DNA from: Legionella sp.
Lineage (GTDB): Bacteria; Pseudomonadota; Gammaproteobacteria; Legionellales; Legionellaceae
DNA: 52,302 bases
Direction of reading: 5' to 3'
Assembly: GCA_002786205.1 (NCBI GenBank)
Contig: PEQM01000038.1
Location: 1-52,302 of the forward strand
Part shown: positions 5,708 through 50,421 of the stretch, in pieces
How the letters are laid out: each line of letters starts with the position of its first letter
How positions within the stretch are numbered: position 1 is the stretch's first letter
Program-made: the position numbers and the translations under genes
Notes under the pieces: generated by a model
Told to the model about the DNA's origin: nothing
Databases searched by the model: none
The model's input: the letters and a program-made list of their open reading frames with translations, nothing else

Positions 5708-7021
5708 TTATTTCTCTGTTTTGATATCCCCTAAAGACAAAGGCTTGCAATAGGTTTCCTTGATTGTAAAAGCCAAGAAAAGAGCAACCAAAGAGCACAA
5801 TGGCAATATTTTTAAACCCGCCTGAAAATCGCTGAGCAATAAACTGTCTACATGATAAGCTCTAACACCAGAGACCAAGTCCACCATGCGTCCTACAAAA
5901 GGCTGCAACAAGGCACCGATAAAAATAGAGGTCATATTGGTGAACGCAATAGATGTGCCTATCACATGACGCTGATGCAATTCAGTCGATACTGCATACG
6001 CTATAGCCACACCCGTATTGGTTAAACCAAAAACAAAAAAGATAACATAGGCCAAATTCCTATCCAGATTGGGTAGAAAAACAAACAAAGACGTCAGGAA
6101 CAAACCGCAAACAGCAGAGAGAATCATAATCGGTTTACGTCGCCCTATTTTATCGGATAACCAACCAGACAAAGGACCGCTGATTCCCCAGCCGATAAAA
6201 ATCAGTCCTGTTGCAAAAGCGGCAGCATGAGCATCCAAGCCCCGCCCAAACTGTAGGTATGCGGGTCCTATTGCTTCGCCAATCACCGCAGTTGGACCAA
6301 ATAAAAAACCTGCATACAAGGCATTTAACCAGGTTTGACGACAAGAAAGAACAATCTTTAAGCTTTGTAATATGGTAACTGATTTTTTTGTAATGGTTTC
6401 TTTTTGGATGGCATCAGGCTTGTCCTGAATGAATTGATTCAACAGACCAGCCAAAACAATAAACAGCGCGGCCATAATAAACATGCTATAACGCCAGCCG
6501 ACTGTACTTACTAAAAAGGAGACAGGAGCCTCTCCAGCAGCAGCACCAAGCATGCCCAAAGACTGAGTTAACCCGGACAACAATCCGAGCATAGTGGGAG
6601 GAAACCAGGAGGTAGCCAGACGTAAAGAACAAACAAAAGCAAAGGCTGCGCTAAAACCGATTAACATACGCCCTGCTGATGCAGTAAACAACCCATTAGC
6701 CATGCCAAACACACAGCAACCAAATGCGGTGATTAAAGACATGATGGTTAATAACCAGCGCACACTCAATCTATCCACCGTTAAACCAACGGGAATTTGC
6801 ATCAAAATGTAAGGCATATAAAAAGAAGCAGTCAAAATACCAAATCCAGCCTCATTGATGCCAAAATCTTTTTGTAGGTATTGATGCATCACTCCCGGCG
6901 CTACACGGGCCAAATAATCAGAAAAATAAAAAGCCGCCGCCAGTCCCCACACCAACCACGCACAAGCCATATAACTTTTACGTGCCACACTTTGTTCTGT
7001 CACTGTATTGAATGTATTCAT
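5708..7021 (-). CDS. Major facilitator superfamily transporter
   Basis: The 437-residue protein has about twelve hydrophobic segments arranged as two six-helix halves with a polar loop near residues 205-225. The loop after helix 2 carries VGLTVDRLSVRWLL, the MFS motif A (G-x3-D-R-x-G/S-R-R); the second half has GWLSDKIGRRKPIM, the same motif repeated. It should act in the inner membrane as a proton-coupled or facilitated transporter. The substrate cannot be read from sequence. It is related in style to the many Legionella MFS carriers for amino acids, organic acids or siderophores. It diverges from the SseB-like gene with about 170 bases between. Confidence 0.88.
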   Translation of the reverse strand: MNTFNTVTEQSVARKSYMACAWLVWGLAAAFYFSDYLARVAPGVMHQYLQKDFGINEAGFGILTASFYMPYILMQIPVGLTVDRLSVRWLLTIMSLITAFGCCVFGMANGLFTASAGRMLIGFSAAFAFVCSLRLATSWFPPTMLGLLSGLTQSLGMLGAAAGEAPVSFLVSTVGWRYSMFIMAALFIVLAGLLNQFIQDKPDAIQKETITKKSVTILQSLKIVLSCRQTWLNALYAGFLFGPTAVIGEAIGPAYLQFGRGLDAHAAAFATGLIFIGWGISGPLSGWLSDKIGRRKPIMILSAVCGLFLTSLFVFLPNLDRNLAYVIFFVFGLTNTGVAIAYAVSTELHQRHVIGTSIAFTNMTSIFIGALLQPFVGRMVDLVSGVRAYHVDSLLLSDFQAGLKILPLCSLVALFLAFTIKETYCKPLSLGDIKTEK

Positions 7022-19330: not shown

Positions 19331-19960
19331 TTACTTTTGCTTGATACCGCTGCCAGGAGAGTCATATTGATTCCTATAAGGTGTTCGGGGGGCCTCTGTA
19401 GGGTAGCCGTATCCTTTATCTGAAATGCACTTGACATTTTTCAAATAAGAATTACCCCAGTTATTGACTTCATCCGGATCAAAATTAGTAACTACTACGT
19501 TATAATTTAAGTTAATGATGGATTCAAATGCCTTTCTTTGTGCTAATAGATGTCCACTCAAGGCAACCTGCACTTCCTCCGCCGGATCAATGCCTCCGCT
19601 TTTCAAACGCTCCACCAGTAAAAAAACCATTTTTTCTATCGTATAGAACAGTTTGCACATGGATTTGCCTGCACTGATGAATTGTGCGCTTTTTGAAGTG
19701 GACAGACTGTCACCTGTATCATGAATAGAATAGACAAATTCTTTTTCATTATTTGCAAGTTGTTCTGCTTCATGCACCAATCCAGGAAGGATGGTTTCTA
19801 TATGTGGCGACAAAACATACAGGTGAAAATCAGCCCAATTCCACCACAGTTGATATACCCGCTCCGCCAAAACGACAGGATTATTAAACTCCTCATCCAA
19901 ATCAGTCAATACCTCTGCTGATTCCATGTCTGTATTTGGCGTCATTTCATTCTCAGACAT
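19331..19960 (-). CDS. lvgA: LvgA-like Dot/Icm adaptor protein
   Basis: This protein has 209 residues and an acidic N-terminal region (NTDMESAEVLTDLDEEF), helical content throughout, and no signal peptide. I assign LvgA from its length, the position next to the sdh operon, and recollection of the protein; I recognise no catalytic motif. LvgA pairs with the chaperone IcmS and the coupling complex to present a subset of effectors to the Dot/Icm channel. A run of six G lies five bases before the ATG at 19960, which is preferred over the GTG at 19963. The C-terminal tail is basic and disordered-looking (TPYRNQYDSPGSGIKQK). Alternative: an unrelated Legionella-specific protein. Confidence 0.75.
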   Translation of the reverse strand: MSENEMTPNTDMESAEVLTDLDEEFNNPVVLAERVYQLWWNWADFHLYVLSPHIETILPGLVHEAEQLANNEKEFVYSIHDTGDSLSTSKSAQFISAGKSMCKLFYTIEKMVFLLVERLKSGGIDPAEEVQVALSGHLLAQRKAFESIINLNYNVVVTNFDPDEVNNWGNSYLKNVKCISDKGYGYPTEAPRTPYRNQYDSPGSGIKQK

Positions 19961-20228
19961 CACTACCCCCCAAAGACGTATGTCATAGTCAGCCTTACAA
20001 GACAGCGCCTGAATTTTAAGACATAACGCACTTTCTTTATGATGTATACCCCAAAAAAAACAGGGCGGTTAAGAAAAACCAGCACTATGCGAATTAACCA
20101 TCTAAAAAAACCAAAGCCCTTGCACTGGTTATTACTGCCTCTGCCATTGTTCAGTACGATCGTATTTTTTAAATTTTTGCTTCACATACACTTTACATAT
20201 TAGCTTATTTTTTACAGAAACCAAATTC
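19961..20228. other. Spacer between lvgA and feoC; possible rearrangement junction
   Basis: About 268 AT-rich bases without a gene I can support. It contains the lvgA ribosome site and should contain the lvgA promoter. It joins two gene blocks that, from memory of locus numbering, are distant in L. pneumophila. No repeat or insertion sequence is visible here. Confidence 0.4.
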
Positions 20229-40022: not shown

Positions 40023-40505
40023 ATGAACACTAAAATTGTCATTATATGTCTTTTTTCTGCGCTGATTACAGGATGCCACGCGACCTTTAAAAAACCACCT
40101 ATGAATAATCCCAGCGATGATGCCTCTATCAAATTGGCTGAAGCAGCTGTCTCTGTTAGCGATTCGATGCTTGAAATGGCAAAAATAGAAAAAGTGATCA
40201 CCCCGCCGGGGAAAGACAATACGCTGACCATACCTAACGCATACAATTTACAAGTTCGTGCCAGTGTAGACTGGTCGGGTCCTATTGAAGAATTAACTGA
40301 GCGAATAGCCAAAGCAGCGCATTATAAAATGCGTGTTTTAGGTACTCAGCCTGCGATTCCTGTTCTTATCAGTTTAAGTATTAAAGATGACAGTTTGGCT
40401 GAAATTTTACGAAACATTGATTATCAGGCAGGAAAAAAAGCGGATATTCACGTTTATCCTAATAGCCAAATCGTTGAGCTGCGCTATGCTAAAACTTACT
40501 CCTAA
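40023..40505 (+). CDS. dotD: Dot/Icm outer-membrane lipoprotein DotD
   Basis: DotD is a 160-residue lipoprotein of the type IVB core complex that helps place DotH in the outer membrane. The signal ends with the lipobox LITGC (Cys18), and the C-terminal half (QVRASVDWSGPIEELTERIA through ADIHVYPNSQIVELRYA) is the N0-like secretin-type domain known for DotD. It is the first gene of dotDCB with a good promoter just upstream. The length matches the L. pneumophila protein closely. The ribosome site before ATG is poor. Confidence 0.95.
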   Translation: MNTKIVIICLFSALITGCHATFKKPPMNNPSDDASIKLAEAAVSVSDSMLEMAKIEKVITPPGKDNTLTIPNAYNLQVRASVDWSGPIEELTERIAKAAHYKMRVLGTQPAIPVLISLSIKDDSLAEILRNIDYQAGKKADIHVYPNSQIVELRYAKTYS

Positions 40506-41397
40506 TCTCCTGGCCTTGTCTTTTTCTTTTCTTTTAGTAAGCTGCGCTTCAAAAGGAAATATAGGCGATACTGATTCTTTAGCCGGCATTCAATCGATGT
40601 CCAGCCCTAAATACAGTCGCCAAAAAAAGCAAAAAGTCAGTAAAATTAGAGAAATGGCACTAAAAGAAACGGCTTTAAGCTTGGGCGCACAGTCTGGTCT
40701 GGCCTGGCGTGCAAAAATTATAGATGAAGCATTGGTAAAGCAAACACGCAATCTCGATACCATTTACGATTTTAATGCCTTGGTATTAGAACATAATGTA
40801 CTGCCGCCAGTTCTATTAGAAGGACGTCATACATTAAACCTTGCCGACACACAAAGCATTCGTGTTTCTGACCGCACGTATAAAGTAGCCAAGCAAGCAC
40901 GATTTATTACCACACCGCCAACCTGGCGTCAGTATTTGTGGATGGACTATACCAAACCGGAAGCCCCCAATCTGTTTCTGTTACCAAAAAATAAAATAGA
41001 AAAAGAAATCTGGTGTATTTATACGGCAAAAGGCTGGAAAAATGGTGTAGAGCAGGCTAATACTATATTGGAAGAAAGCCAGGCACGTCTTAAAGAAGAT
41101 TTTTCCGGTATGATTTTATATAGAAAATTACTGGCCATGAATATGGTCTCACCACCTTATGTCTCTCATACCGATTTAGGCGTCACCGGTGATGAATCTG
41201 AAATACGTATTGATGATCGTGTATTACGCATTACCGCCTTGCCTGCTCTTAATACCAACAGCGACCAATGGAGAGCGGCCGTTGCAAAGGATGAAAACGC
41301 TTTAGAACAATTAAGCCATATGGAAAAAGTAGCCAATCAATCACAAATTGTTATCACCAACAAAATATGGCAGCCTGTTATCACGCCAGTTAACTAA
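40486..41397 (+). CDS. dotC: Dot/Icm lipoprotein DotC
   Basis: DotC, 303 residues, is the second lipoprotein of the core complex; with DotD it targets DotH to the outer membrane. The signal sequence ends with the lipobox LLVSC (Cys20). Family-like segments include GAQSGLAWRAKIIDEALVKQ, NVLPPVLLEGRHTLNLADTQ and TPPTWRQYLWMDY. The ATG at 40486 overlaps the end of dotD by 20 bases; longer frames running further into dotD are not real starts. dotB follows after 12 bases. Confidence 0.95.
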   Translation: MLKLTPNLLALSFSFLLVSCASKGNIGDTDSLAGIQSMSSPKYSRQKKQKVSKIREMALKETALSLGAQSGLAWRAKIIDEALVKQTRNLDTIYDFNALVLEHNVLPPVLLEGRHTLNLADTQSIRVSDRTYKVAKQARFITTPPTWRQYLWMDYTKPEAPNLFLLPKNKIEKEIWCIYTAKGWKNGVEQANTILEESQARLKEDFSGMILYRKLLAMNMVSPPYVSHTDLGVTGDESEIRIDDRVLRITALPALNTNSDQWRAAVAKDENALEQLSHMEKVANQSQIVITNKIWQPVITPVN

Positions 41398-41409
41398 TAT
41401 GGTTTTAAA

Positions 41410-42540
41410 ATGACAAATATTTGCTTAATGCCTGATGAACCCACTCGATTTACGCCAGCTTTTATGGAAAAAATGTTGGAACATGCACAGCAACTGGATG
41501 CCTCAGACATCACCATACAAACGGGAGAACCTATTTATGCCGAAGTGTATGGCAGGCTGCTTAAAATCACTAATCGGCGTTTATCCAATACGGAATTGGG
41601 TGATTTAATTAATGCCATCTACGGCCCTAATGCCACCACTCAATTACTTTCCGGGCATGACATTGATACCCATTATGAATTTCGCCCTAACCGTGGCGTC
41701 CGCTTTCGCTATCGAGTCAATGGTACCGCATGCCTGGTCGAAGGACATGATGCCATTCAAATCACTTTAAGAACGATACCGACCACACCACCTCAACTGA
41801 GTACCATGAACCTGCCAGACAATGTACTGGAAGCCATCTCGCCTCAAGAAGGCATCGTTTTTATTACTGGAGCCACCGGCTCTGGCAAATCCACGCTGCT
41901 GGCATCGATCATTCGTGAATTAATAGAAAAAGAAGACTCTAATAGAAAAGTGCTAACCTATGAAGCACCTATTGAATTCGTTTATGATGAAATTGAAACC
42001 ATTTCTTCGGTAGTAAGCCAGTCTGAAATCCCTCGCCATTTACCTAATTTTGCTGATGGTGTGCGTAATGCGCTAAGAAGAAAGCCCCGCTTGATTATGG
42101 TGGGTGAGTGCCGTGATGCCGAGACCATTAGCGCGGCACTCGAAGCCGCCCTGACAGGTCACCCGGTATACACTACCTTACACACATCTGGTGTGGCTGA
42201 AACCATGCGACGTCTGGTCACCTCTTTCACCGGAGAAGAACGATTGGGGCGTACAGTTGATATTTTAGAAACCATCCGCCTTTGCATTTGGCAAAAATTA
42301 GTTCCTACCGTCGATGAAAAACGGGTGGCCCTAAGAGAATATCTGGTTTTTAATGAAGAAGTTCGCGATATTTTACTTGAAAGCGATCCGAATGAAATAA
42401 CCACGACGACCCGTAAACTAGTCCGTCAGCGAGGCCAGCTGATGACACAGGATGCAAAAATAAAATTTGAGCAAGGCATTATTAGCGAGCGCGTCTATAA
42501 ATTAATTATTGCTGGCGCAAAGGAATACCAACAAACCTAG
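41410..42540 (+). CDS. dotB: Dot/Icm secretion ATPase DotB
   Basis: DotB is the hexameric cytoplasmic AAA+ ATPase of the PilT/VirB11 type that powers the Dot/Icm channel. The 376-residue protein has Walker A GATGSGKST (154-162), the Asp box in VLTYEAPIEFVYDE, Walker B RLIMVGECRD (227-236, Glu233) and the His box HPVYTTLHTSGVAETMRRL. The N-terminal domain is PAS-like as in PilT. It closes the dotDCB operon. A hairpin about 50 bases downstream may end the transcript. Confidence 0.97.
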   Translation: MTNICLMPDEPTRFTPAFMEKMLEHAQQLDASDITIQTGEPIYAEVYGRLLKITNRRLSNTELGDLINAIYGPNATTQLLSGHDIDTHYEFRPNRGVRFRYRVNGTACLVEGHDAIQITLRTIPTTPPQLSTMNLPDNVLEAISPQEGIVFITGATGSGKSTLLASIIRELIEKEDSNRKVLTYEAPIEFVYDEIETISSVVSQSEIPRHLPNFADGVRNALRRKPRLIMVGECRDAETISAALEAALTGHPVYTTLHTSGVAETMRRLVTSFTGEERLGRTVDILETIRLCIWQKLVPTVDEKRVALREYLVFNEEVRDILLESDPNEITTTTRKLVRQRGQLMTQDAKIKFEQGIISERVYKLIIAGAKEYQQT

Positions 42541-42775: not shown

Positions 42776-43510
42776 ATGAAGCTTAAGTTATTATTCCTCA
42801 GTTTATTATCTATTCCTAGCTATGCCGGCACGATGGGCGATATACAAAAACCAGGTATTCTGTATGTAGCAACGTTTAGTATAGGTCCTACTTGGGCAAC
42901 ACCAGGACAGCAGCAAACTTTAAGCTTAACCCCAGAAATTGAAAAAACCTATACCGCTTACAAGCCGAGCAATACCTTAGCTGATGGCGAAGTATTTTTG
43001 GGCATTAAAAAAGATTTACCTTACAATCTGTTCACCCATGTAGGTATTGCAGGGGGATTAACCAGTCAGGCTGGACTTTCTGGCCAAGTTTGGGATGATG
43101 CAGACCCAAGTTTTAACAATTACATCTATGGTTATCATATTCAACAGGGACATGTGGCATTAAAAGCTAAAGTATTTAAAGATTTTCATTACAGCCTATT
43201 ACCTTGGGTTAGTGGGAGTGTCGGTGTTGGTTTTAATCGTGCCCATGGCTTTTATAATCAAGCCTTAATTTTTGAGGCTATACCGCAAAATAATTTCGGC
43301 GATCATACACAAACGAGTTTTACCTACACCGTCGGTGCTGGCCTGCAAACCATCATTAATTCAAATTGGCAGGCTGGTATTGGTTATGAGTTTGCGGATT
43401 GGGGGCAAAGTCATTTGAATCCAGCACTCGGTCAAACTCAAGGCACGGGCTTAAGTCTCAGTCATTTATACACCAATGGATTGATGTTTAATCTTACTTA
43501 TATTTCATAA
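42776..43510 (+). CDS. Predicted outer-membrane beta-barrel protein
   Basis: This is a 244-residue protein with a Sec signal peptide (LKLLFLSLLSIPSYA, cleavage near residue 18). The mature part alternates aromatic and polar residues in amphipathic strands (VFLGIKKDLPYNLFTHVGIA; TYTVGAGLQTIINSNWQAGI), typical of small beta-barrels of the OMP_b-brl type. It ends NLTYIS rather than with the usual aromatic residue. AAGGA lies seven bases before ATG. It begins a cluster of secreted proteins behind dotDCB. Function unknown. Confidence 0.8.
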   Translation: MKLKLLFLSLLSIPSYAGTMGDIQKPGILYVATFSIGPTWATPGQQQTLSLTPEIEKTYTAYKPSNTLADGEVFLGIKKDLPYNLFTHVGIAGGLTSQAGLSGQVWDDADPSFNNYIYGYHIQQGHVALKAKVFKDFHYSLLPWVSGSVGVGFNRAHGFYNQALIFEAIPQNNFGDHTQTSFTYTVGAGLQTIINSNWQAGIGYEFADWGQSHLNPALGQTQGTGLSLSHLYTNGLMFNLTYIS

Positions 43511-43515
43511 GGATA

Positions 43516-43876
43516 ATGATGATAAAAGGAATTTTAGTTTTAATGGGTTTCAGTGCTATCGCCTCTGCCGGAACTCCTGTATGTAGGTAATAATACCATT
43601 TCGATTTGCCCTTTTGAGGCGGATGGTTCATTTGGGGTTTGTACAGCGTCAACTGACCTAAATTTTGATGGAATAGTTAGCACATGGCTCAGTTAAGGTG
43701 AAACAATCCAGAAGGCAATCAGGTATAGTAGTTCAAATGACGTGTTACAGTAAAAAAGGAGCCCTTATTTTATTTTGGCCGTGAGTAGTAATAGAACTTT
43801 CACGAGCATAACCTTTGATGGAAAGCTTCCGTATAACAAAGCTAATGAGTCATTTATAATTTATAACAACCTATAA
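43516..43876 (+). pseudogene. Frameshifted remnant of a secreted beta-propeller-like protein
   Basis: A good start (TAAGGATAATG) opens with a signal peptide, MMIKGILVLMGFSAIASAG, and stops at the TAA at 43588. One base over, the frame continues LLYVGNNTISICPFEADGSF and GVCTASTDLNFDGIVSTWLS before another stop. The pattern 'YVGN..TI..CP...DGSFG.CT' is typical of repeats in secreted beta-propeller proteins. Further shifted pieces such as FILAVSSNRTFTSITFDGKL and YNKANESFIIYNN reach 43876. No intact frame is possible without several corrections, so the gene is dead or the assembly is faulty. The whole 43511-43968 gap is explained this way. Confidence 0.65.
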
Positions 43877-43968: not shown

Positions 43969-44748
43969 ATGTCCGTGCGAAATCATCGTTCTATTCATGC
44001 CATACATCCGTTCACTATGGCATGCAGCGCTCTGTTATTACTGTCTCTGTCTCCATCAAGCATGGCGGCTTCATACCAGGCCAGTGTCTACGGTGGCGGC
44101 ACCAGCACCACCTTTAACCATATAGGCCCGGTCACCTTCCTGGAAGAGACAGACACGCTTAACCCCACCAATACTCTGGCCACATCAGGAACCTGGGGAT
44201 TAGCTGCCGCTTTAAGAACCAATACCCTTCCTGAGGGCTTAAAAAAATGCATCGAAGAGGTGTCTTTTGGGCCTGAATTTTTCTATGTTAATGGCAATTC
44301 TACTGGCGATGTCTGGCAATACCAATTGCCAGAGATGAATAATTTGACTTATAAAATTTCTACTAGCAGCTACAGATTGTTAGCTACTAATGAAATTACC
44401 TTTAAACCCTTAGCGCCCAAGACCTTTCCTTTTTTTGCCTGGGGAATAGGATTTGCCGCCAATGAATCCTCTTATCAGGAATACCCCAGAGCCACATATG
44501 ATTCGCCCGGACTTAGTCTGGCGGCCAAAACCCAATATCAATTTGCCTATACTTTTGGTGGTGGCTTAAAAATTGATGTGTCTGACATCGCCCATACCAA
44601 TCATCCTGTTTTGCTTAGCTTTCGCTATTTGTATGCTCATCTGGGTTCTGCTGATGTGTCCAATCAATCCAGTACCGTGGTGACAACCCCTATTGAAGTT
44701 AATCTCTATACACAAACCTGGGTGGCTGGGCTAACTTATTTATTTTAA
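43969..44748 (+). CDS. Predicted outer-membrane beta-barrel protein
   Basis: This is a 259-residue protein with a long signal sequence (positively charged start, then MACSALLLLSLSPSSMAA) and a beta-barrel-like mature part ending in the aromatic TQTWVAGLTYLF, the classic outer-membrane C-terminal strand. Glycine-aromatic strand pairs (FPFFAWGIGFAANESSYQEY; QFAYTFGGGLKIDVSD) repeat. The ATG at 43969 is close to AAGGA; a GTG at 43975 has better spacing and may be the true start. It is 19 bases before the thaumatin-like gene and so probably in its operon. Confidence 0.8.
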   Translation: MSVRNHRSIHAIHPFTMACSALLLLSLSPSSMAASYQASVYGGGTSTTFNHIGPVTFLEETDTLNPTNTLATSGTWGLAAALRTNTLPEGLKKCIEEVSFGPEFFYVNGNSTGDVWQYQLPEMNNLTYKISTSSYRLLATNEITFKPLAPKTFPFFAWGIGFAANESSYQEYPRATYDSPGLSLAAKTQYQFAYTFGGGLKIDVSDIAHTNHPVLLSFRYLYAHLGSADVSNQSSTVVTTPIEVNLYTQTWVAGLTYLF

Positions 44749-44770: not shown

Positions 44771-46675
44771 ATGAAGCGTTTATTATTTTGTTTACTCGTT
44801 TTGCTCATACCCATCAGTTTTTTCCAGACAATCCATGCGGCAACGAACCCTTTTAGTATTGCACAAGGCACACCAGTACAAGCTATGGTGGCAGGCAGTT
44901 CTCAAGGCGTTCATTTTATCATCAGTAGCGCAGCACCTAAAAATACGCCGGTCGTAGTCACCTGTAGTTTCATTCCTGATGATCCCAGCGCACTGCAATA
45001 CTCCTTTAATAATGCAGGATGCGTTGCAGGGGTCGGTGTTTATAATGGTAATCCAGTAGACACTTTAGTCAGCTTTACTATTCCTGGCAATATAACAAGC
45101 ACTCAAAAAGGCAAATTAATCTTCAGGCAAACCAATGGCCGAGGCTATTCAACGACCATTCCTGTTAGCATAGCGGTTAAAGCCAACTCGCAACGGACTA
45201 TTACCGTTACCAATTATTGCACCAGGCCTAATGGGGCAGGAAAAAGCACAGGTAATGATATTGTGCTGGGTATTATTTCTTCTGCAACCCCGGCCAAAAA
45301 CCAATATACCTCTTATACATCATGCAGCAGTAATGCGGATTGCAGTATTTTTACCATTTACTCTACCTGTGTAGGTCTTGCCGCTGACGGCTCTTGTCCT
45401 GGTGGAAACTGTTATTGTGGCGGCGGAGCCTGCTCAAGAGACAGTGATTGTGTGAATTCACATTCCGGCACTTGTCAAAAAAATGCCTGTACTTATTGTG
45501 CAACAGACAGCAACTGTATGACCGGCTCATCTTGTAATACAACAGCCAACCTATGCTATTTTTCTTTCCCCACTCCCAGCAAATACCAGCTGAATGCCTA
45601 TACTTTTGGAGGCAGAGCTGATTCAGCCACCATTACCTTACCAGACCATACAGCCGCTACGGGCTTTACTCAAGTATTCAATGGCCGCATTAGCCCCAGG
45701 GTAGGCTGTACTCTCACTAATAGCGAATACTCCGATTGTAATGTCGCCGATTGTGGTACAACCACAGGCTCTGGTGCTTGCAACTTTGCCCGCAACGCCT
45801 TTGCCTCTCCTTATCCATTGGCTGAGTTTACCCTTATTGGCACAACACCGGACACCTATGATCTGTCCTTAGAAAGTGGGGCGACTGTTGCCATGTCCAT
45901 GTATCCTACTCCCGGCAGTGCCGCCTCACCCAATGCCTACGGTAATCCTTATATTTGTGGTCTGCCAGGGGCGACAGTGGAGGTGCAAACCAACAGTGGA
46001 CAACAAAACATCGGTAAAAGTACCTGGGCATTTAATCTGCCATCGTACTTAAATTCCCCGGTCTACCAATTACGCTGGGTAGATACAAGTAACGGAACAT
46101 CGTGTAGCAGCGATGCAACTTGTCAAAGTATAGACTCCTCCTACTATTGTGGCCTGACTAAAGCCAATGAAACAGGTGGAGGCACTACTACCTGTGGCAA
46201 ACCCCTGGGCTATTGGACTTTTGATCAGATTTGCACAGACAAGAGTACCTTTACTTTCAAAAATGCAAACAACGACACCATTGCTTCTTGTGGCACAGAT
46301 TATGGCTCTAATACCTACGCCGACTTACTGGCCTGCTCAGGGGCTGCGGCTGCCAGCTGCTATAATGAAGGCAGCAGTAATGCGGTTTGTGGCGGCTGTG
46401 CGAATTGGCAAGATTACAACATCATCGTCCCTACCAGTAAGTATATTGTTCCTCAATGCTCATACCCTAATACCTACTGGGTGGGTTCAAGCAAATTTGA
46501 TGCCCCCGGAGTATTACCTTTTGTGACCTGGCTAAAACAAGCCTGCACCAGCTGCTATGCTTATCCCTACGATGATAAAAGTTCGACCTTCACCTGTCCT
46601 GGCAATACAGGACAAAGTGCTGTGAACTATAACATCGATCTTTGTCCTGAAAACAAAGGCTTAACACCCGCTTAA
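44771..46675 (+). CDS. Secreted thaumatin-like domain protein with a cysteine-rich insert
   Basis: This protein has 634 residues from the ATG at 44771 (a TTG at 44768 is possible). A Sec signal peptide (LLFCLLVLLIPISFFQTIHA) leads. Residues about 26-140 look like an Ig-type beta domain. About 185-270 is very cysteine-rich (ADGSCPGGNCYCGGGACSRD; CTYCATDSNCMTGSSCN). The rest reads as thaumatin: FNGRISPRVGC, AEFTLIGTTPDTYDLSLESG and, near the end, CYAYPYDDKSSTFTC and VNYNIDLCPENKG, the thaumatin signature order with its acidic cleft residues. Thaumatins are chiefly plant and animal proteins, some with glucanase or membrane activity. Over 30 cysteines imply periplasmic or extracellular disulfides. 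Confidence 0.85.
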   Translation: MKRLLFCLLVLLIPISFFQTIHAATNPFSIAQGTPVQAMVAGSSQGVHFIISSAAPKNTPVVVTCSFIPDDPSALQYSFNNAGCVAGVGVYNGNPVDTLVSFTIPGNITSTQKGKLIFRQTNGRGYSTTIPVSIAVKANSQRTITVTNYCTRPNGAGKSTGNDIVLGIISSATPAKNQYTSYTSCSSNADCSIFTIYSTCVGLAADGSCPGGNCYCGGGACSRDSDCVNSHSGTCQKNACTYCATDSNCMTGSSCNTTANLCYFSFPTPSKYQLNAYTFGGRADSATITLPDHTAATGFTQVFNGRISPRVGCTLTNSEYSDCNVADCGTTTGSGACNFARNAFASPYPLAEFTLIGTTPDTYDLSLESGATVAMSMYPTPGSAASPNAYGNPYICGLPGATVEVQTNSGQQNIGKSTWAFNLPSYLNSPVYQLRWVDTSNGTSCSSDATCQSIDSSYYCGLTKANETGGGTTTCGKPLGYWTFDQICTDKSTFTFKNANNDTIASCGTDYGSNTYADLLACSGAAAASCYNEGSSNAVCGGCANWQDYNIIVPTSKYIVPQCSYPNTYWVGSSKFDAPGVLPFVTWLKQACTSCYAYPYDDKSSTFTCPGNTGQSAVNYNIDLCPENKGLTPA

Positions 46676-49176: not shown

Positions 49177-50301
49177 TCATCTACTTCTATATGCCTTATT
49201 CTGCGCTGTGCTTTGATTAATATTGCTTTGGTAAGCAGGGTAATTGCTAATGTTATTGAGATATTCCTCTTGTTGATTGAGAATTAACTCAATCCATCTG
49301 GCCTGATCTTGGGGAGGCGAGTCATTGACGCGTAAAATCGGCATGGAGTCGGTTTCCCTGTTTTTTAAGATACTTTCGTCAGTCTGCCATGAAAACAAGC
49401 AAGCCCCCGTTGATGGATGAAAAGGGTTTAATTCAATGACGATCACCCTATCGCCAATCAGGGCAAGATCAAGAATGTAATTGTCCAATTTGATTAAAGG
49501 ACTTAGCTCTTCAGCAAAATTTTTTAAGCGCTTGACTATTTTCTTTTGTAGCTCGGTGTCATTGTAAGATGGATAATGGCAATAGGTATTATATTGTGAA
49601 ATGGCAGTGACTTTATTTTGATAAACAAAAAGCCGAAACTCATGTTCTTGCCTCAGTTCAGCTTCCCATTCCCTAAGAATAATGGCAGTGGACCACTGGT
49701 CTTCTTCACTTGCAGAGCAACGAATGGCTTCCAGCAAATCGGTATACACTCTTTCACTGGTTAAGATAAGATTAAATATTTCTTGAGTAGTACGGCAGTT
49801 TAAGTTTTTCATCTGCAGATCGGTTAACCCAATGAGTTGTTCATTCAATGACGTATTTTTTTGTACAATATCTTGATAAGCCTGGAAACCGGCTGTATTT
49901 AAATCACGTATGGCAATGCCATCTTTGGGAGATCGGTTTGACATGCGAATAAAAACTTCTTTTCCGTGAAAGTCCTCTTCAAGAATAGAGGCAAGGGTAT
50001 TTTCCATCTCCGCAATAATGAGCCGGTCTTGTCTGGTGAGGGTATTTGCATGACCAATCATTACTTCACGGTAGTAATGTGTAAACGCGATGGCTGTTTC
50101 TTTGTCTATGGCAATAATACGGCTCGTGAATGTATAAGGTTCTAATTTTTTGTACCACTGCTCAAAATCATAGGCATGGTGAATTTTTTTCTTATCTAGC
50201 GAATGAGCGAAAAGAGGGGATTGCATTTCGGGATTTAAATTAGATAACACGGTGCTTTGTTCCGCTTTTTTTCGTGCAAAGAAATCAAAAAATTTTAGCA
50301 T
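49177..50301 (-). CDS. CDC123/D123-like ATP-grasp protein, candidate effector
   Basis: This protein has 374 residues from the ATG at 50301 (a TTG at 50310 is less likely). The D123 pattern is visible: VFIRMSNRSPKDGIA (cf. S/SPKD in CDC123), LRQEHEFRLFVYQNKVTAIS, YNTYCHYPSY, then the metal and ATP site region YILDLALIGDRVIVIELNPF followed by TGACLFSW. In eukaryotes CDC123 is an ATP-grasp protein needed for eIF2 assembly; bacterial copies are rare and Legionella is known to carry some. No signal peptide. A role on host translation is inference. It is monocistronic by spacing. Confidence 0.82.
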   Translation of the reverse strand: MLKFFDFFARKKAEQSTVLSNLNPEMQSPLFAHSLDKKKIHHAYDFEQWYKKLEPYTFTSRIIAIDKETAIAFTHYYREVMIGHANTLTRQDRLIIAEMENTLASILEEDFHGKEVFIRMSNRSPKDGIAIRDLNTAGFQAYQDIVQKNTSLNEQLIGLTDLQMKNLNCRTTQEIFNLILTSERVYTDLLEAIRCSASEEDQWSTAIILREWEAELRQEHEFRLFVYQNKVTAISQYNTYCHYPSYNDTELQKKIVKRLKNFAEELSPLIKLDNYILDLALIGDRVIVIELNPFHPSTGACLFSWQTDESILKNRETDSMPILRVNDSPPQDQARWIELILNQQEEYLNNISNYPAYQSNINQSTAQNKAYRSR

Positions 50302-50421
50302 GGCATCCAACTTTTTTTAAAAATAGTACTGTATATTATAACAGAACTTATGCATCATGAATTCAAGACCTCATTATCGTACAGGGCAACCGCGTCTAAC
50401 TGCTTATTGCTAACCCCAATC

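Follow-up and report, generated by a model that had tools for sequence, protein, structure and literature searches.

A thaumatin-like protein paired with an OmpA-like barrel in Legionellales: a conserved gene pair and a possible surface display system

The window considered here is the whole 52,302-nt stretch of contig PEQM01000038.1 from a Legionella sp., and not any single feature of it. It encodes a predicted outer-membrane beta-barrel and, 22 bp from the end of the barrel gene to the next ATG, a thaumatin-like protein (Table 1). A first-pass annotation had described the latter as secreted, rare in bacteria and interrupted by a cysteine-rich insert, with an additional beta domain ahead of the thaumatin part, and had proposed that it may form a surface or host-directed system with two beta-barrels. 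The protein was confirmed as such, as were its secreted type, thaumatin fold, insert and extra domain. The overall interpretation was supported in part, and a host-directed action is plausible.

Table 1. Features of the barrel-thaumatin locus, in window coordinates.
Feature	Coordinates	Strand	Basis or remark
Secreted thaumatin-like protein, 634 aa	44771..46675	+	End coordinate includes stop
Signal peptide, approximately residues 1-23, without lipobox	44771..44839	+	Sequence reading and home-made heuristic scans; cleavage site estimated
Immunoglobulin (Ig)-like N-terminal domain, residues 26-138	44846..45184	+	
Discontinuous thaumatin domain, residues 142-626	45194..46648	+	
Cysteine-rich insert, residues 185-262, 14 Cys	45323..45556	+	Cys positions
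OmpA-like outer-membrane beta-barrel, 259 aa, without SPOR	43969..44748	+	Predicted model, fold matches, conserved adjacency
Possible promoter ahead of the pair, 10/12 consensus matches	43833..43860	+	Consensus scan

The assignment of fold and family is near certain: the protein scores 56.4 bits against the thaumatin model PF00314, for which the curated cut-off is 27.4, and it has the thaumatin fold. Its N-terminal domain is Ig-like in the predicted model, 37 cysteines follow the signal peptide, and the cysteine-rich insert, within which no DNA repeats were found, is modelled with low confidence at residues 190-237. The cleft was read at the positions that we take to form the REDDD acidic-cleft motif: R306, E352 and D364 are retained, and S369 and S594 replace the Asp of plant proteins. 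The annotation had named a missing thaumatin core or acidic cleft as grounds for its refutation; this outcome goes halfway against it, because the core is present but the full cleft is missing. Across 30 aligned proteins, including that of the window, the Arg is found in 2, the Glu in 30, the first Asp in 27, the second in 5 and the third in none. As for the supposed rarity, PF00314 matches 73 of 143 genomes within the order, 7 of 369 in a sample of the class, three of these seven belonging to the same family, and 0 of 14 control genomes.

The predicted model of the barrel has eight long strands and a predicted local distance difference test score (pLDDT) of 89.0, and its Foldseek matches include barrels of the OmpA, NspA and OmpX types, which is consistent with an OmpA-like eight-stranded transmembrane barrel. 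The protein lies below the curated cut-off of the outer-membrane beta-barrel family PF13505 (23.3 vs. 28.7 bits). Among 29 scanned barrels, i.e., 28 thaumatin-paired ones and the second barrel of the window, 27 match PF13505 at E ≤ 0.001 and 12 match SPOR, which is a peptidoglycan-binding domain. The fold also resembles that of porins whose structures were determined in situ around the Legionella Dot/Icm machine (9nh2, 9nh1), on which no paper was found in the open-access literature; this likeness was not used, as these chains are absent from the seven sequence matches of the barrel profile search. The promoter candidate counts for little, because the consensus scan yielded 14 sites where 10.2 (sd 2.9) are expected.

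The proposed link to two barrels stands for the one at 43969-44748, the conserved partner, and falls for the one at 42776-43510. In the barrel tree, the latter is one of 11 barrels that form a starred set (100/100), none of which is directly upstream of a same-strand payload, and a PDB sequence search with it gave no match at E ≤ 10. Between the two barrels, at 43517-43591, lies a 24-codon open reading frame (ORF) that by eye resembles a signal peptide, followed by a stop, and may be the remnant of a decayed gene.

A gene-by-gene reading of eight relatives placed a window-barrel homologue directly upstream of the thaumatin gene in every one. Neither dotDCB nor the direct neighbours of the pair are common to these loci; the few other matches, to more distant window genes, comprise ABC-type ORFs (three loci), one ORF each at 19331-19963 and 5708-7021 and a match in L080 to 49177-50310 with 30% identity, about 6 kb upstream of the pair. 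The survey was extended to 67 thaumatin loci of the order, i.e., the window and 66 others, from the 73 genomes with a PF00314 match; outside it are G017 and G086, which are fragmentary, G038 and G087 (not retrieved, with an upstream barrel match on the same contigs), and G095 and G100 (divergent paralogue only). With a hidden Markov model (HMM) of the barrel, 57 loci present a same-strand barrel directly upstream, seven do not, and three are at contig ends. A scan of the named genomes (67 loci) added 43 thaumatin genes: eight pairs, from bins labelled Gammaproteobacteria (seven) and Coxiellaceae (one), 28 without a pair, including L146, where the barrel is convergent, and seven at contig ends. 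The pair, N-domain and signal counts exclude ORFs shorter than 200 aa, identical copies, the split-gene copies L190 and L194, and the second fragment of the split gene in both L118 and L126. Over all 65 pairs, the gap between the genes has a median of 23 bp (range -109 to 306). The two window genes form an operon-like pair, and conservation of the pair is well supported. In the open-access literature, as far as it was available, no description of this pair was recognised.

The thaumatin gene is split into two ORFs in both L118 (5981-8031) and L126 (5846-8181). L078 (5994-8168, G000:C12) encodes a second, divergent thaumatin protein of its genome, with 724 aa and 40.3 bits to PF00314 at model positions 151-209; its 16-kb locus presents no barrel-HMM match. 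Beside a truA-like gene, L098 and L099 carry a barrel and thaumatin pair at the site where L220-L227 carry a payload-free barrel, which reflects either payload loss or later gain.

The annotation regarded the architecture as unfamiliar; however, PMC4256840 and PMC2824747 list lpg1328/legT as a Legionella thaumatin, and the former includes the Legionella thaumatin proteins in a table of eukaryotic-like effectors whose function is unknown. Against the LegT equivalog model NF045527, whose cut-off is 1200, the window protein reaches 90.9 bits and is therefore not LegT itself but a distant relative. Both have an N-terminal signal and Ig-like part and a C-terminal thaumatin domain, and the LegT equivalogs of L. 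norrlandica (1463.6 bits) and L. feeleii (1440.2 bits) are likewise downstream of a barrel gene. Unlike LegT, the window protein has a single short, divergent N-domain, a large cysteine-rich insert and a barrel without SPOR. It differs from plant PR-5 proteins (Pru av 2, zeamatin, osmotin) in two of the five cleft residues, the large insert, the extra N-domain and the outer-membrane partner, and has 14% identity with the GH64 laminaripentaose-producing beta-1,3-glucanase (5h9y).

Other payload proteins were reached from barrels that have no thaumatin neighbour, and the occurrence of different payloads behind one barrel family was shown. The payload behind the L214 barrel has a GH17-like C-terminal part: a nine-sequence profile matches the GH17 enzyme 6fcg at E 7.8e-6, and two of the nine members match PF00332 at E ≤ 1 (best 3.4e-8). 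A search with this payload matched 53 of the 143 genomes. By hand count of the rows listed, the match lies in the GH17 part in 39 and in the N-terminal part only, mostly of thaumatin genes, in 14. Of these 39, 28 were examined; the other 11 seem to be without the N-domain, given that their matches begin only at about residue 155. Ten of the 28 have a same-strand barrel directly upstream, and in L267 the barrel is divergent.

A third payload follows the barrel by 8-58 bp in four loci, with SPOR confirmed in both barrels scanned (2/4). Eight proteins of this type (sets A4 and A6) gave no Pfam match under E 0.05, the NCBIfam search gave one chance row (E 0.16), and no PDB match was better than E 1.3. 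Compared with the thaumatin set by profile, the third payload matches in the N-domain only (probability 93, E 3e-7), while its C-terminal part aligns over 61 columns with probability 53 and E 1.4e-4. Given such absent or weak matches, a GH64-like head is only a suggestion. Behind the SPOR-type barrels of L209 (4714-5130) and L210, there are only short frames that match the LegT-type N-domain (138 aa; 205 and 139 aa as open frames). The barrel tree, with 99 members, places GH17-paired barrels among those paired with thaumatin proteins; the GH17 pairing requires three changes and the window-type thaumatin pairing one or two, so that at least one exchange of the barrel partner seems to have occurred.

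On profile comparison, the N-domains of LegT-type and GH17 payloads are homologous, with an hhalign E of 8.5e-38 (the LegT-type set having been chosen by the GH17 HMM) and direct matches down to E 3.7e-18; moreover, one barrel-paired GH17 protein matches the LegT model at positions 3-114 (E 7.6e-13). Among thaumatin proteins, the GH17 N-domain HMM matches 47 of the 65 paired, 5 of the 35 unpaired and none of the 10 at contig ends. Fifteen of the 18 paired proteins that it misses, the window's among the 18, are of the window type, a name given by this very miss; barrels of this type also cluster in the tree. Among 40 LegT-type pairs (not window type), barrel distances track those of the N-domain slightly better than those of the thaumatin domain (0.42 vs. 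0.31), yet the two domains of one gene correlate far above either (r 0.75). This lends modest support to a role of the N-domain. Among proteins with a signal recognised by the second of two home-made rules, which also requires a polar stretch after the Cys, none of the 63 paired and 15 of the 40 others carry a lipobox, where "unpaired" includes contig-end proteins and the Fisher value ignores kinship; the first rule had called two of the 65 paired proteins (L114, L186) lipoproteins.

The best reading of these results, to which we give a probability of about 0.5, is surface display by the barrel of exchangeable, glucan-directed heads. The barrel would be placed in the outer membrane, and the thaumatin-like protein would cross the inner membrane via Sec, form its disulfides in the periplasm and reach the surface, most simply by the type II secretion system (T2SS), whose genes, including GspD and GspE, are present in the genome. 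There the barrel would hold it, probably through the Ig-like N-domain, and the thaumatin domain may bind or weakly cleave beta-1,3-glucan or some comparable polysaccharide, whether from eukaryotic prey, cysts, fungi or algae. Since related genomes pair the same barrel family with a GH17-type or third payload, barrel and Ig-like domain may act as a general display module with exchangeable heads, in which the divergent window N-domain presumably plays the same part as those of LegT-type and GH17 proteins. PMC12239567 states that certain T2SS substrates are attached to the outer surface; neither thaumatin nor LegT appears in its main text.

Several results weigh against this reading. The window protein, lacking two of the five REDDD residues, is not a plant-type PR-5 protein, and its cleft is incomplete. 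Its N-domain has no significant profile match to that of the LegT type (hhalign probability 4.9) or of GH17 proteins (4.6), and SPOR was not found in its barrel. The correlations that involve the barrel are small in absolute size (Spearman 0.21 and 0.13). The lipobox contrast is one between clades, because none of the eight classifiable unpaired proteins inside the order has a lipobox. An adjacent barrel is missing at 7 of 64 assessable thaumatin loci, a same-strand barrel directly upstream is missing from 18 of 28 GH17 genes, and payload-free barrels adjoin a truA-like gene (named by eye) in eight genomes. Upstream of the unpaired L082 are two genes of GH57 and alpha-amylase type, i.e., for enzymes of alpha-glucans rather than beta-glucans. 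Co-occurrence of barrel and thaumatin at the genome level was set aside as evidence, because barrel-family genes are found in 135 of 143 genomes. The strongest contrary fact is a table footnote in PMC4256840, which marks LegT of L. pneumophila (lpg1328) as demonstrated to be Dot/Icm-secreted.

That footnote speaks for an injected, LegT-like Dot/Icm effector, with the barrel as a neighbour or envelope helper. NCBIfam also calls the related family, matched here at 90.9 bits, "Dot/Icm T4SS effector LegT", and dotD, dotC-type and dotB genes lie at 40023-42540 in the window. This linkage was not taken as a rule, because dotDCB is not beside the pair in the eight loci read. We consider injection unlikely: the conserved neighbour is an outer-membrane barrel, and a Sec-type signal peptide with so many subsequent cysteines is unusual for a protein injected into the cytosol. 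A free type II exoprotein, antifungal or glucanase, with the barrel as a co-inherited porin or adhesin without physical link, is also improbable. The T2SS genes and signal peptide would suit it, as would the loci without an adjacent barrel, the persistence of barrels without payload and the low barrel-payload tree correlation; however, the pair is maintained amid different neighbours (8/8 loci read), and one barrel family adjoins different payloads, two of which have a common N-domain. Least probable is a barrel that exports the payload as in a two-partner route: although the gene order and an N-domain common to different payloads, as a possible export tag, fit it, we know of no eight-stranded OmpA-like barrel that passes proteins, and POTRA or TPR families are absent from the Pfam matches of the barrels.

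For surface display, the lectin LecB and OprF of Pseudomonas offer a comparison. OprF is OmpA-like, the LecB fold is unrelated to that of thaumatin, and no payload exchange is known to us. According to the abstract of PMC3466170, LecB is held at the Pseudomonas surface by OprF. As a sugar-binding protein held by an outer-membrane protein, it may by analogy serve as a precedent; the abstract describes no adjacent gene pair, in which it differs from the barrel and thaumatin.

Tentatively, display could extend to a new two-gene system of Legionellales, in which an OmpA-like barrel, often SPOR-fused, would hold proteins with Ig-like N-domains whose heads are swapped among thaumatin, GH17 and a third, perhaps GH64-like, type, all directed at the beta-1,3-glucans that eukaryotic hosts or prey carry. 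On this view, LegT would bind glucan at the cell surface, either instead of being injected as an effector or in addition to it. The barrel partner, the N-domain common with GH17 proteins and the change of payload provide a concrete alternative, i.e., surface-held, glucan-directed proteins contacting amoebal cysts, fungi or algae, and the pairing raises the question of whether LegT acts in the host cytosol.
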